Positions 27,784-31,933 of a stretch of 34,685 nucleotides of DNA are shown piece by piece; the first letter of the stretch is position 1, and each line of letters starts with the position of its first letter. The notes below the pieces were generated by a model. It had not been told where the DNA came from, ran no database searches, and worked only from the letters and a program-made list of their open reading frames with translations. The position numbers were made by a program, and so were the translations under genes. Source of the stretch: Acetobacterium sp. (GTDB lineage: Bacteria > Bacillota > Clostridia > Eubacteriales > Eubacteriaceae). The stretch lies in contig JAQUWM010000022.1 in the NCBI GenBank assembly GCA_028692885.1, positions 1 through 34,685 on the forward strand, read 5' to 3'.

Positions 27784-27901
27784 CTTAAGAATATATGACA
27801 ATTAAGTATTTGTTTTAAATTTTAATTAGAATTTTAGGAAAGATGTATAAAATAAACTTAGACTCTGTTAAAATAATGGTATTGTTGGTATGAGGAGGCT
27901 T

Positions 27902-28612
27902 ATGGTGAACGAAAAGGCAGACTATCATGTATCGATTAAAGAGCTCCCTGAGGATGAACGTCCCCAGGAAAAGATGATCCGTCATGGGGCCGGAAGTTTG
28001 AGTAATGCCGAGCTTTTAGCCATTATTATTCGCACCGGAACCCGGGGCACCACTTCAGTAGAAATTGGCAGAAAAATCATTGCGTATCTGGACAATGACT
28101 TATCCTATTTTCATCAAATGGATGTTTTAGAATTGAAACGAAATCCCAATCTAGCTGGAGTTGGCATTGTAAAAGCTTGTCAGATTAAGGCTGCTATTGA
28201 ACTGGGCTATCGGATGAAACAGAAGGATCTTCCTGATGTTAAAATTACCTCACCGCAGAATGTGGTCGGACTACTGATGGATGAGATGCAGTACCTGAAA
28301 CAGGAGTGTTTTAAGATTATTATGCTTGACACTAAAAATAAGGTAATCAAGGTCGAGGAGATCACTCGTGGTACCCTCAATTCATCTCTGGTTCATCCGC
28401 GGGAAGTCTTTGTTAAAGCGATTAAACAGCATGCAGCATCAATTATTCTGGCTCATAACCATCCCTCAGGAGATACACAACCCAGTGCCGAAGATAAAAG
28501 CATCACCAGACGTCTGGTCGACGCAGGAGAGCTTATTGGTATTTCGGTATTGGATCATATCATCATTGGACGAGGAACATACATAAGCTTTAAGCAGGAA
28601 AAACTCCTGTAA
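27902..28612 (+). CDS. radC: RadC family JAMM/MPN+ domain protein
   Basis: A 236-residue RadC protein. The N-terminus (about 1-100) holds a helix-hairpin-helix-like part (GAGSLSNAELLAIIIRTG and NLAGVGIVKACQIKAA). The C-terminus is a JAMM metalloprotease-like domain with AHNHPSGDTQPSAED, giving metal ligands H185, H187 and an aspartate at about 198. The old link to DNA repair in E. coli has been withdrawn, and the function is unclear. The start is set at ATG 27902; GTG 27905 is better spaced (six bases) from the AGGAGG and is an alternative. Confidence 0.93.
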   Translation: MVNEKADYHVSIKELPEDERPQEKMIRHGAGSLSNAELLAIIIRTGTRGTTSVEIGRKIIAYLDNDLSYFHQMDVLELKRNPNLAGVGIVKACQIKAAIELGYRMKQKDLPDVKITSPQNVVGLLMDEMQYLKQECFKIIMLDTKNKVIKVEEITRGTLNSSLVHPREVFVKAIKQHAASIILAHNHPSGDTQPSAEDKSITRRLVDAGELIGISVLDHIIIGRGTYISFKQEKLL

Positions 28613-28660
28613 TTATCTTAAAATTTAAAAAATATCTAACGCCTTACTGTAAAATTAGGG

Positions 28661-28761
28661 TATAATGATATGCATGTTTTTATAGTTTCCCGATTTTAAC
28701 AAAGTTATTACAAAAGATTAGGGTAGGCAAATAAAAAGCTGTTTATATAAAGCAGTTTTTT
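28661..28761 (+). promoter_or_regulatory. Candidate promoter and leader terminator ahead of the pseudouridine synthase gene
   Basis: A TATAAT at 28661-28666 (weak -35) could start a leader near 28673. The leader contains a stem CTGTTT/AAGCAG (28739-28744 with 28750-28755, one T-G pair) followed by six Ts (28756-28761). This terminator lies only 15 bases before the ribosome site of the next gene, so it could be an attenuator, or it could end the radC transcript. Confidence 0.45.
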
Positions 28762-28785
28762 AATTGAATCAGAACCGGGGGTAGA

Positions 28786-29694
28786 ATTATCAGTCTCGTT
28801 TATACATATTACATATCAGAAAATCATAAAAAGTCGGTCCGGGAAGAGCTGACCAAACGTTACAGTTACTCCAGCCGTTTAATCAGTGAAATTAAACGGA
28901 TCGGAAAGATCAGTCTAAATCATAAAGAGTGCTTTCTGGGACAGCAAATCAAGTCAGGGGATATCATCGAGATTAAAATGCCGAAGGAAGATATTGATGG
29001 GGAACCAGTGTCAGGCAAATTAAGCGTAGTTTACGAAGATGATGAACTGCTGGTGATCAACAAACCGCCATTTTGTGTAACACATCCCACTAAGAGCCAT
29101 CAATTGGATACTCTGGCAAATTACATCAGCTATTACTGGCACGATCGAGGGGTTTCGGCAAAAATTCGCTTTATCAATCGATTAGATCGCGATACAACCG
29201 GCATTGTGGCGATAGCAAAAAATAAATATGTGCATCATTATGTCCAAAATGAAATGAATTCAGGCAAGGTCAGAAAGGTCTATCATGCCTTTGTGCATGG
29301 GAAGCTTCCCTGTGAAGAAGGGATTATTGACGCTCCGATCGGACAACCCTACGAAGACAGTATTCATCGGGTGGTGATCGATACGGGGAAACCATCAGTT
29401 ACCCGCTATAAGGTGCTGGAAGAGTATAAAAATGCATCGTTGGTGGAGCTGATTCTGGAAACTGGACGAACCCATCAGATCAGGGTTCATTTACAGCATC
29501 TGGGAAATCCGATTATTGGGGACCCCTTGTATCACGGAGATGATTTGGCTGGCGATTGTTTGGGAATGCCTCATCAGGCACTGCATGCACGGAGTCTGAA
29601 TTTATCGCTTCCCAGAAAAAGTAATCTGCATGTTCAGGCTGAGTATAACAGCGAGTTGATCGATTTACGAAAAAGTCTGATAGATAATAAATAG
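28786..29694 (+). CDS. RluA/RluD-family 23S rRNA-type pseudouridine synthase with non-AUG start
   Basis: A pseudouridine synthase of the RluA group. The catalytic aspartate is D134 in NRLDRDTTG, followed by PIGQPYEDSIHR, TGRTHQIRVH and GDPLYHG. The frame has an ATG at 28978, but the reading upstream is open and encodes a clear S4 RNA-binding domain (KKSVREELTKR, SSRLISEIKR, GQQIKSGDIIEI) with no ATG, GTG or TTG back to the stop at 28765. GGGGG at 28777-28781 lies four bases before ATT (28786) and seven before ATC (28789), so one of these is the likely start. Length 301-302 residues, normal for RluD types; from 28978 it would lose the S4 domain. The RNA target cannot be named. The PBP gene follows after 13 bases. 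Confidence 0.85.
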   Translation: MISLVYTYYISENHKKSVREELTKRYSYSSRLISEIKRIGKISLNHKECFLGQQIKSGDIIEIKMPKEDIDGEPVSGKLSVVYEDDELLVINKPPFCVTHPTKSHQLDTLANYISYYWHDRGVSAKIRFINRLDRDTTGIVAIAKNKYVHHYVQNEMNSGKVRKVYHAFVHGKLPCEEGIIDAPIGQPYEDSIHRVVIDTGKPSVTRYKVLEEYKNASLVELILETGRTHQIRVHLQHLGNPIIGDPLYHGDDLAGDCLGMPHQALHARSLNLSLPRKSNLHVQAEYNSELIDLRKSLIDNK

Positions 29695-29707
29695 AAAAGG
29701 TGATAAA

Positions 29708-31933
29708 ATGAGTGAAAAACAAAAAAAAGGAATAAAAAGACGTAAGAAGAAAAAACATATTGGGGCCAAGGTGCTGATTATTCTTTTAGTCCTGGGGATC
29801 CTGGGAGTTGGAGTCATGTATTCTATCTATGCCGCAAATCGTATGGATATCTCCGATTATCAGTATCAGGCTAAGGATAAAACCGAGATTTATTCCGCAG
29901 ATAATGCCCTTATTGCTGAATTGTACATGAAAAATCGAACCAATATTACCATTGATCAGATTCCGGTGCAATTACAGCAGGCTCTGATATCGGTAGAGGA
30001 TTCACGGTTTTACGATCATTTTGGGATTGATTTACTGGGAATAGTCCGGGCATTTTTCTCCAATATAGCCAGTAATGGTATCGGTGAAGGTGCCAGTACC
30101 ATTACCCAACAGCTTGCCAGAGTGTTATTTCTACCGGATATTGCAACCGAGCAGAACTTTAATCAATCCCTGGTGCGAAAACTAAAGGAAATATCGATAG
30201 CGCTTCAATTGGAAGAAAAGTATACAAAGGAACAAATTCTGGAGATGTACTTTAATGAATACTATTTTGGTTCCGGTGCATATGGGATTGAAGAAGCAGC
30301 CAAGACCTATTTCAATAAACCAGTTTCTCAGGTCAATCTGGCCGAAGCTGCGATGCTGGCGGGTTTGCCACAAGCCCCTAGCGCATATGCTCCCAATACG
30401 AATTTAGAAGCAGCAAAAAAACGTCAACAGGAAGTTTTAACACGAATGGTGAAGGAAAAATATATTACTCAGGAAGAAGCAGACGCCGCTTATTCAATGG
30501 AACTGGTAATCAGAGATCCGGCGACCATTAGTTATGATGATCAGATTGTGGACAATTACGAAGCCTATGTCGGGCGAGCTTTGGATGAATATGCGAGATT
30601 GAAAGCATCATCTGTTATGCAAGAACGTGGTATCACTCAAGATCAGGCCATTGATTATATCAAAGAAAATATCGCCAATGGTGGGTACCGCATCTATACG
30701 ACCATTAACACCGCTATGCAGGCCGATGCTTTGGACAGTCTCAACGTTGGACTCGCCGATTCTGGTCTGGACACTGAAACAGGATCTATCGTGTCGGTGG
30801 ATTTGGACGGTGCGGTTAAAGCCTATTATGGTGGCAACACTCAAATTGATATGGCTAACACACCACGACAGCCAGGGTCAAATATCAAGCCGCTTTATTA
30901 TGCCGCGGCGATGGATAAGGGCTTAATTACCCCATCGACAACAATATCCGATACTTACACTGATTTTGGAGGATATGCTCCGAGAAATTATGATGGCGGT
31001 TATCATGGAACGGTTACGGTGCGAACAGCTTTAGTTAATTCTTACAATATACCAGCAGTTAAGGTATTCGATAAGGTTGGACCGGAGGAGGCTGTAGCAT
31101 TTATGCAAACCATGGGGATTTCGACTTTTGAAGATGATGATTATAATCTTGCCACCGCCCTTGGCGGAATGACTTATGGCATTAAGCCGTTAGAAATGGC
31201 GGCAGCCTTTAATGTTTTTAATAATGCCGGGGTTTACAATCAACCCTACTATATCACAAAAATGGAACAGGTTAACGGAGAGGTGCTTTATACCAAAAAT
31301 ACGTCCAGTACCATCACCAGGAAAGTTATGACAGATACCACCGCAACCAATATGATAAGTATCCTTGAAGGTGTTGTCGACTACGGAACGGGAACGGCTG
31401 CAGCTCAGATTTATCCAACCGCCGGGAAAACCGGGACAACGCATGACAATAAAGACTTATGGTTTACTGGGATCACCGGAAATTTAACGACTACTGTTTG
31501 GATTGGTAGTCCCGAAAACTATGTTCTGTCAGGTGGTAGTTATATTGCCGCAGGGATCTATGGAAATTATATGAGTGCCGTCATCGATCAGGACTTACTG
31601 ACCACCACGGAAATGGAACGGACTTCTAACGAGGGAAAAGGTTCGGGAGCATCTTCCGTCGACTCAGGATACAGTACGACTGATAAAGATGACGAAACAA
31701 CCACAGAGACACCAACGACAAAACCAACAACCCCAACTGAACCAACCAAACCAACCACACCGACGACCCCAACTGAGCCAACAATCCCAACTGAACCAAC
31801 TGAACCAACTGAACCAACTGAACCAACTGAACCAACTGAACCAACCGAGCCGACTGAGCCAACCGATCCAACCGAACCAACCGAGCCGACCGAGCCGACG
31901 ACCCCAACTGAGCCAACCACACCAACTACCTAA
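29708..31933 (+). CDS. Class A penicillin-binding protein (transglycosylase/transpeptidase) with Thr-Glu-Pro tail
   Basis: This bifunctional cell wall enzyme polymerises glycan strands and cross-links peptides outside the membrane. A basic N-terminus (KRRKKKKH) and one membrane helix (about 20-43) are followed by the GT51 domain, with EDSRFYDHFGID (catalytic E97) and GASTITQQLAR. The transpeptidase domain has S391-N-I-K394 (PGSNIKP), the S445-Y-N447 motif and K574-TGT. The final 80 residues, from about 660, are Thr/Pro/Glu repeats, mostly TEP, likely an extended wall-spanning tail. An AAAGGTGAT site precedes the ATG. It follows the pseudouridine synthase gene by 13 bases, and the cupin gene's ribosome site overlaps its stop. 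Confidence 0.95.
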   Translation: MSEKQKKGIKRRKKKKHIGAKVLIILLVLGILGVGVMYSIYAANRMDISDYQYQAKDKTEIYSADNALIAELYMKNRTNITIDQIPVQLQQALISVEDSRFYDHFGIDLLGIVRAFFSNIASNGIGEGASTITQQLARVLFLPDIATEQNFNQSLVRKLKEISIALQLEEKYTKEQILEMYFNEYYFGSGAYGIEEAAKTYFNKPVSQVNLAEAAMLAGLPQAPSAYAPNTNLEAAKKRQQEVLTRMVKEKYITQEEADAAYSMELVIRDPATISYDDQIVDNYEAYVGRALDEYARLKASSVMQERGITQDQAIDYIKENIANGGYRIYTTINTAMQADALDSLNVGLADSGLDTETGSIVSVDLDGAVKAYYGGNTQIDMANTPRQPGSNIKPLYYAAAMDKGLITPSTTISDTYTDFGGYAPRNYDGGYHGTVTVRTALVNSYNIPAVKVFDKVGPEEAVAFMQTMGISTFEDDDYNLATALGGMTYGIKPLEMAAAFNVFNNAGVYNQPYYITKMEQVNGEVLYTKNTSSTITRKVMTDTTATNMISILEGVVDYGTGTAAAQIYPTAGKTGTTHDNKDLWFTGITGNLTTTVWIGSPENYVLSGGSYIAAGIYGNYMSAVIDQDLLTTTEMERTSNEGKGSGASSVDSGYSTTDKDDETTTETPTTKPTTPTEPTKPTTPTTPTEPTIPTEPTEPTEPTEPTEPTEPTEPTEPTDPTEPTEPTEPTTPTEPTTPTT
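31791..31844 (+). repeat. Six perfect 9-base repeats in the PBP tail
   Basis: The unit CTGAACCAA occurs six times without a mismatch, in frame, encoding Thr-Glu-Pro. Variant copies with synonymous changes continue on both sides (about 31726-31930). Perfect copies can slip during replication; each change keeps the frame and alters tail length by three residues. Confidence 0.9.

Follow-up and report, generated by a model that had tools for sequence, protein, structure and literature searches.

Natural AUC, AUA or AUU (AUH) start codons that are backed by evidence are few in bacteria. The named genes are infC, pcnB, ccpN, cvfC1, citZ and, by inference, lepA (PMC1780047, PMC13009471). The infC gene of E. 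coli starts with AUU (PMC1780047, citing Butler et al. 1987). According to a report on S. aureus reporters, AUU and AUA starts gave about 10% of AUG expression in poor medium, ccpN gave up to 30% of AUG in rich medium, and the AUU and AUA starts of this organism have an extended Shine-Dalgarno (SD) sequence (PMC13009471). The same source describes ccpN (AUA, in S. aureus and B. subtilis) and the staphylococcal cvfC1 (AUU) as genes with a conserved non-canonical start, a strong SD and a reporter expression that is lowered in comparison to AUG; the first encodes a repressor and the second a small protein, and their starts were shown by initiation profiling and reporters (PMC13009471).

Here we describe an RluA-family pseudouridine synthase gene of Acetobacterium, which appears to add a genus-conserved case to the rare class of AUH-started genes known from infC, pcnB and ccpN. 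No report on the start codon of this gene was found in the literature that we searched. It shares with ccpN and cvfC1 the conserved non-canonical start and the strong SD, and it differs from them in that it encodes an RNA-modifying enzyme, in that AUC is its commonest start codon, and in that the start is predicted from sequence comparison. The pcnB gene is alike in that an RNA-active enzyme is made from an AUU start, and the product is unrelated to the RluA-family protein. Binns and Masters are said to have found in 2002 that the synthesis of E. coli pcnB is limited by its AUU start.

The gene lies in a window of 34,685 nucleotides, which is the whole stretch of DNA that was analysed. The order of genes around it on the plus strand is an RnfB-like gene (a name taken from sequence reading), radC, the RluA-family gene and a gene for a PBP1A-family penicillin-binding protein. 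The frame of the RluA-family gene opens at a TGA (28765-28767) and its stop codon ends at 29694. A sequence-only reading had proposed that the gene starts at ATT or ATC behind a GGGGG acting as ribosome site, the first canonical ATG being at 28978. Re-reading the DNA confirmed the positions of the TGA, the GGGGG and the ATT, ATC and ATG codons, and a frame scan likewise found no in-frame ATG, GTG or TTG between the upstream stop and the ATG at 28978, which is 70 codons past the opening of the frame. The window has 31 long open frames, and in the other 30 a canonical codon is found 18 codons or less from the opening. The apparent N-terminus of the RluA-family protein has no canonical start codon. 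The following features are referred to below:

28777-28781, plus strand: Shine-Dalgarno site GGGGG, 7 nt before the ATC; GGAGG in 12 and GGGGG in 7 of 19 genus genomes.
28786-28788, plus strand: ATT codon, judged to be part of the spacer, SD spacing 4 nt; the column is ATT in 14, GTT in 2, ACC in 2 and GAT in 1 of 19 genomes.
28789-28791, plus strand: ATC (AUC), the most likely start codon, SD spacing 7 nt; ATC in 13, ATA in 4 and ATT in 2 of 19 genomes.
28789-29694, plus strand: gene for the RluA-family pseudouridine synthase, 301 amino acids, stop included; TIGR00005 at 226.5 bits, PF00849 over residues 87-237.
28798-28977, plus strand: N-terminal S4-like unit of the AlphaFold model, which would be lost to gene callers that are limited to ATG, GTG and TTG.
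28978-28980, plus strand: ATG (Met64), the first canonical codon, judged to be an internal residue and not the start.

We examined the start region in 19 Acetobacterium genomes, the window's own genome counted in. Seven of the 19 loci are on the minus strand and were turned before the upstream DNA was read. All 19 genomes have an ortholog, with identities of 52-100%, and the genus name is taken from named loci among the nearest, such as that of Acetobacterium dehalogenans DSM 11527 (89% identity). In every one of them GGAGG or GGGGG is followed, after exactly 7 nt, by ATC, ATA or ATT, which speaks against a chance arrangement. Four of the five SD positions are invariant and the third is G or A; the ribosome site that had been proposed is thus kept throughout the genus, and its predicted pairing, calculated with an assumed 16S tail, is -9.9 to -12.2 kcal/mol at the AUH codon. 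Conservation of the proposed ATT/ATC pair was found for one of its two codons: at 28789 the codon is AUH in 19/19 genomes, whereas the one at 28786 is GTT, ACC or GAT in five. A canonical codon at the same place in close relatives, which the earlier reading had named as counter-evidence, does not occur in the genus, although other genera mostly have one. Because the codon at 28789 is the only one that is AUH in all 19 genomes, and because its SD spacing is 7 nt, we conclude that translation very probably starts at this near-cognate AUC.

The third base of the 28789 codon is G in none of the 19 genomes, and on the tree it has changed at least four times, never to G. If equal rates are assumed, a run of four such changes has a one-in-five chance of never reaching G, so that this count, taken alone, is weak. 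The AUH codons are also the set of isoleucine codons and six other columns are isoleucine in all 19 sequences; the third-base pattern is therefore not decisive by itself, and the case is built on the genus-wide lack of a canonical start at the place of the AUH codon.

Other genes of the genus were read as controls. RluD-type paralogs have ATG at the expected place in 11 of the 11 loci read, a count that leaves out further paralog matches without loci. ATG was also found in 10/10 pbp1A loci in which the alignment extended to residue 1; of the other nine, eight alignments began later and one locus had no match. The infC gene was found in 17 of the 19 genomes (loci L054-L070), and in all 17 an ATT stands before AG(C/T)-AAA, 9 nt after GGAGG. 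In most of these infC genes another ATT lies 3 nt behind the GGAGG, and some of their frames include canonical codons further upstream (e.g. L056-L058). We read the ATT at 9 nt as the apparent infC start by analogy with the AUU start known from infC, and Acetobacterium seems to use this classical start of the IF3 gene and to keep it as ATT. The RluA-family gene is like infC in its near-cognate AUH start, which in the infC genes of the genus also follows GGAGG in 17/17 cases. It differs in that infC keeps the single codon ATT, encodes IF3 and is the gene to which autocontrol belongs in this comparison; in the RluA-family gene, the codon switches between ATC, ATA and ATT.

A search of the order at E 1e-50 gave orthologs in 63 of 67 genomes, and the start region was read in each of these 63 loci. 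Nineteen are the AUH loci of the genus, two more are AUH, six are ambiguous and 36 are canonical by reading; in the rest of the order 36/44 loci thus have a suitably placed canonical codon, L073, L075 and L077 being scored as canonical (GTG) although no clear SD precedes the GTG. The two further AUH loci, L086 (ATC, genome G066) and L103 (ATT, genome G063), have the codon at the same place and no in-frame canonical codon upstream. Both are from one genus of another family, in which two other loci (L095 and L097) have ATG at the start place. The match of L103 spans query residues 5-191 only, and this gene may be broken. In the ambiguous loci, which are from other genera of the family of Acetobacterium (L048, L049, L050, L051, L052 and L072), a GGAGG-like site is followed by ATC or ATA at the protein's N-terminus, and possible canonical codons are present as well. 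A match at E 1e-52 was found in 105 of the 393 genomes from the class, 82 of them outside the order. One locus from each of the best 60 of these 82 genomes was read, and in each of the 60 orthologs a canonical codon stands in frame where a start would fit, which speaks for presence and is not proof of use. The AUH codon class and the SD spacing are therefore kept in 19/19 genomes of the genus but not in most other genera. On a tree of 71 rows that excluded the first residues, at least two state changes are needed when the ambiguous rows are left out and five when they are counted as AUH. The AUH start is therefore bound to lineages and probably arose more than once.

At the AUC at 28789, the strong SD 7 nt upstream would place the initiator Met-tRNA and would make the weak AUH codon usable. 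Going by the work on infC and pcnB (cited in PMC1780047) and by the S. aureus study (PMC13009471), IF3 would be expected to reject most initiation complexes on AUH, and the translation rate would therefore be low and dependent on IF3. Strong SD and weak codon together would result in a low, IF3-sensitive synthesis of the pseudouridine synthase, as in infC and pcnB, and AUH would be kept because IF3 discriminates against it. We favor this down-tuning step, with some reserve. Since AUC, AUA and AUU replace one another across the 19 genomes and AUG never does, the selected trait may be the rejection by the initiation machinery. A more speculative extension, to which we give little credence at present, is that the gene of this pseudouridine synthase, a modifier of ribosomes or tRNA, is a second one read by IF3 beside infC, that RNA modification follows start-codon proofreading and that selection keeps any codon rejected by IF3. 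If true, RNA modification in Acetobacterium would rise and fall with start-codon proofreading. Ribosome profiling of A. woodii has been reported (PMC8407422) and could make the start testable without new experiments, provided that the reads are obtainable.

The alternative that survives best has the same start site and competes only with the down-tuning step. It states that the AUH start is real but non-regulatory, a weak start that drifted to fixation in the ancestor of the genus while a strong SD compensated for it. Such drift would fit the confinement of the clear AUH cases to one genus and two genomes of another family, as well as an SD that is strong throughout; it is harder to reconcile with at least four third-base changes, none of which led back to ATG although identity between the proteins falls as low as 52%, and with the similar state of a second lineage (L086 and L103). 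We consider it the less probable account, though one to be taken seriously.

A start one codon earlier, at the ATT at 28786, would apply at least where ATT precedes the AUH codon, which would then encode a conserved isoleucine as second residue. AUU is the best-known near-cognate start and the 28786 column is ATT in 14/19 genomes, but because the codon before AUH varies (ATT, GTT, ACC or GAT, the last three accounting for five genomes), we judged that it is probably not the start. Its spacing of 4 nt is also short compared to the 6-8 nt that are commonest in the window (10 of 20 SD-canonical codon pairs, which were not vetted), a range that favors 28789 with its 7 nt. Finally, 15 of the 22 mostly-isoleucine columns drift to other residues, while the 28789 column, together with six others, never does. 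We hold a start at 28786 to be improbable, and the start is most likely the ATC at 28789.

It was also considered that the AUH codon encodes an internal isoleucine and that translation begins further upstream at another codon. The third base of AUH does vary just as that of an isoleucine codon, and in five of the 19 genomes the frame contains a canonical codon 5' of AUH: TTG in L009, L011 and L015, ATG in L016, only 7 codons before AUH, and both ATG and GTG in L017. These codons are found at places that are not shared, except in the near relatives L011 and L015, and the other 14 genomes have none between the upstream stop and AUH. Moreover, in L022 an in-frame TAA directly precedes ATT ATC, a stop only two codons before AUH, and in-frame stops are found 7 codons (L020) and 8 codons (L005) before it. 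Selection on the protein points in the same direction. In the 11 closer genomes, pN/pS is 0.18 for codons 2-16 (bootstrap 0.07-0.33) and 0.11 for codons 2-63; for the ten codons 5' of the SD it is 1.00 (0.84-1.24), a value obtained at fixed offsets without alignment, so that indels there would bring it closer to 1. In the full set of 19 genomes, pN/pS is 0.33 for codons 2-16 and 0.25 for codons 65-300. Column conservation in the genus alignment drops just 5' of the SD. The comparison thus supports protein-level selection beginning right after the ATC at 28789, and a start further upstream would be highly improbable.

We give similarly little weight to a short, S4-less enzyme that is made from the ATG at 28978, alone or as a second product. 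Met64 is methionine in 19/19 genus sequences, and a solved chain of E. coli RluA has only 217 residues. However, the predicted SD pairing at Met64 (with the same assumed 16S tail) is just -3.3 to +0.4 kcal/mol, and selection on the protein is strong over codons 2-63. Outside the genus the position is methionine in 7/18 orthologs in the rest of the family, 8/26 in the rest of the order and 8/60 in the class, and L, F, I or V in the others. The Met64 form as sole product is very unlikely, as a minor additional product somewhat less so.

A start at Met64 would, by the structural model, remove the S4-like unit. The AlphaFold model, made from a 9-sequence alignment, has a mean pLDDT of 86.1 and a pTM of 0.82, and its N-terminal unit is composed of a strand (residues 4-8), two helices (17-25 and 29-37) and two strands (41-43 and 59-63). 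The name S4 for this unit follows the order of elements in the fold and the family; many RluA-family members have an N-terminal S4 domain. Pfam gave no S4 match to the protein, even at E 10. Foldseek matched the model best to E. coli RluD and to further structures of the RluA family, for the most part in the catalytic domain; the full-length match to RluD has a TMq of 0.68 but an rmsd of 12. The proposal that an S4 domain is encoded before the ATG at 28978 is therefore backed indirectly by the modeled strand-helix-helix-strand-strand order of residues 4-63 and by the selection on codons 2-63, but not by Pfam. The predicted truncation by a standard gene caller is a real risk, and we caution that callers using only ATG, GTG and TTG would lose the N-terminal unit of the enzyme.

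An assembly or base-calling error, about which the earlier reading had also been wary, is refuted for the window's genome, a 202-contig assembly that is 87% complete, since the arrangement recurs in the 18 other Acetobacterium genomes, of which four are listed as one contig.

The protein scores above the curated cut-off of TIGR00005, the RluA family (226.5 bits compared to 192.7), and matches PF00849 (PseudoU_synth_2) with an E value of 2e-31. Its motif RLDRDTTG includes R131 and D133, both invariant in the 9-sequence alignment, and we take the aspartate of the RLD motif to be a mark of the catalytic domain of the RluA family. The RluD equivalog NF008385 was not reached (145.4 bits, cut-off 351); a paralog on contig C137 is nearer to RluD with 262.8 bits, yet also below the cut-off. 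The RluA-family name given in the earlier reading stands, and the RluD label in the comparison that it proposed should be widened to the RluA family. In B. subtilis, YhcT is described as nearer to RluA by sequence and as modifying positions 1940, 1944 and 1946 of 23S rRNA, which are the RluD sites, and YjbO as making the 31/32 pseudouridines of tRNA (PMC7408541). By score (TIGR00005), the Acetobacterium enzyme has its family in common with YhcT and YjbO, and because these two have translation-related targets, the enzyme probably acts on rRNA or tRNA.

A terminator-like hairpin with a T-run (28734-28762) lies directly 5' of the SD and is well folded in the window's own genome, the stretch having -13.5 kcal/mol. 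A similar stem is present in L006 and L007. By eye, most of the 19 leaders are without it, and regulation by this hairpin was set aside for this reason. A promoter and terminator scan of 28550-29850 returned three promoter-like sites and one terminator-like site, with shuffle means of 3.8 and 0.9. A search for a second copy of the leader with 81 bases of start-region DNA matched the orthologous place in 14/19 genomes; all other matches were short and weak, with a best E of 0.04, and a further copy of the leader is thus not evident.

Two observations concern the neighboring genes. The listed radC ORF starts with ATG at 27890 and has AGGAGG within its first codons (27890-27910). The true radC start is probably GTG at 27905 or ATG at 27902, because AGGAGG is followed by GTG in several relatives. 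With its own start unclear in this way, and no match in 7/19 loci, radC was dropped as a start-codon control and pbp1A took its place. The penicillin-binding protein has at its C-terminus a long Pro-Thr-Glu repeat tail (TEPTEPTEP), encoded at 31700-31933.
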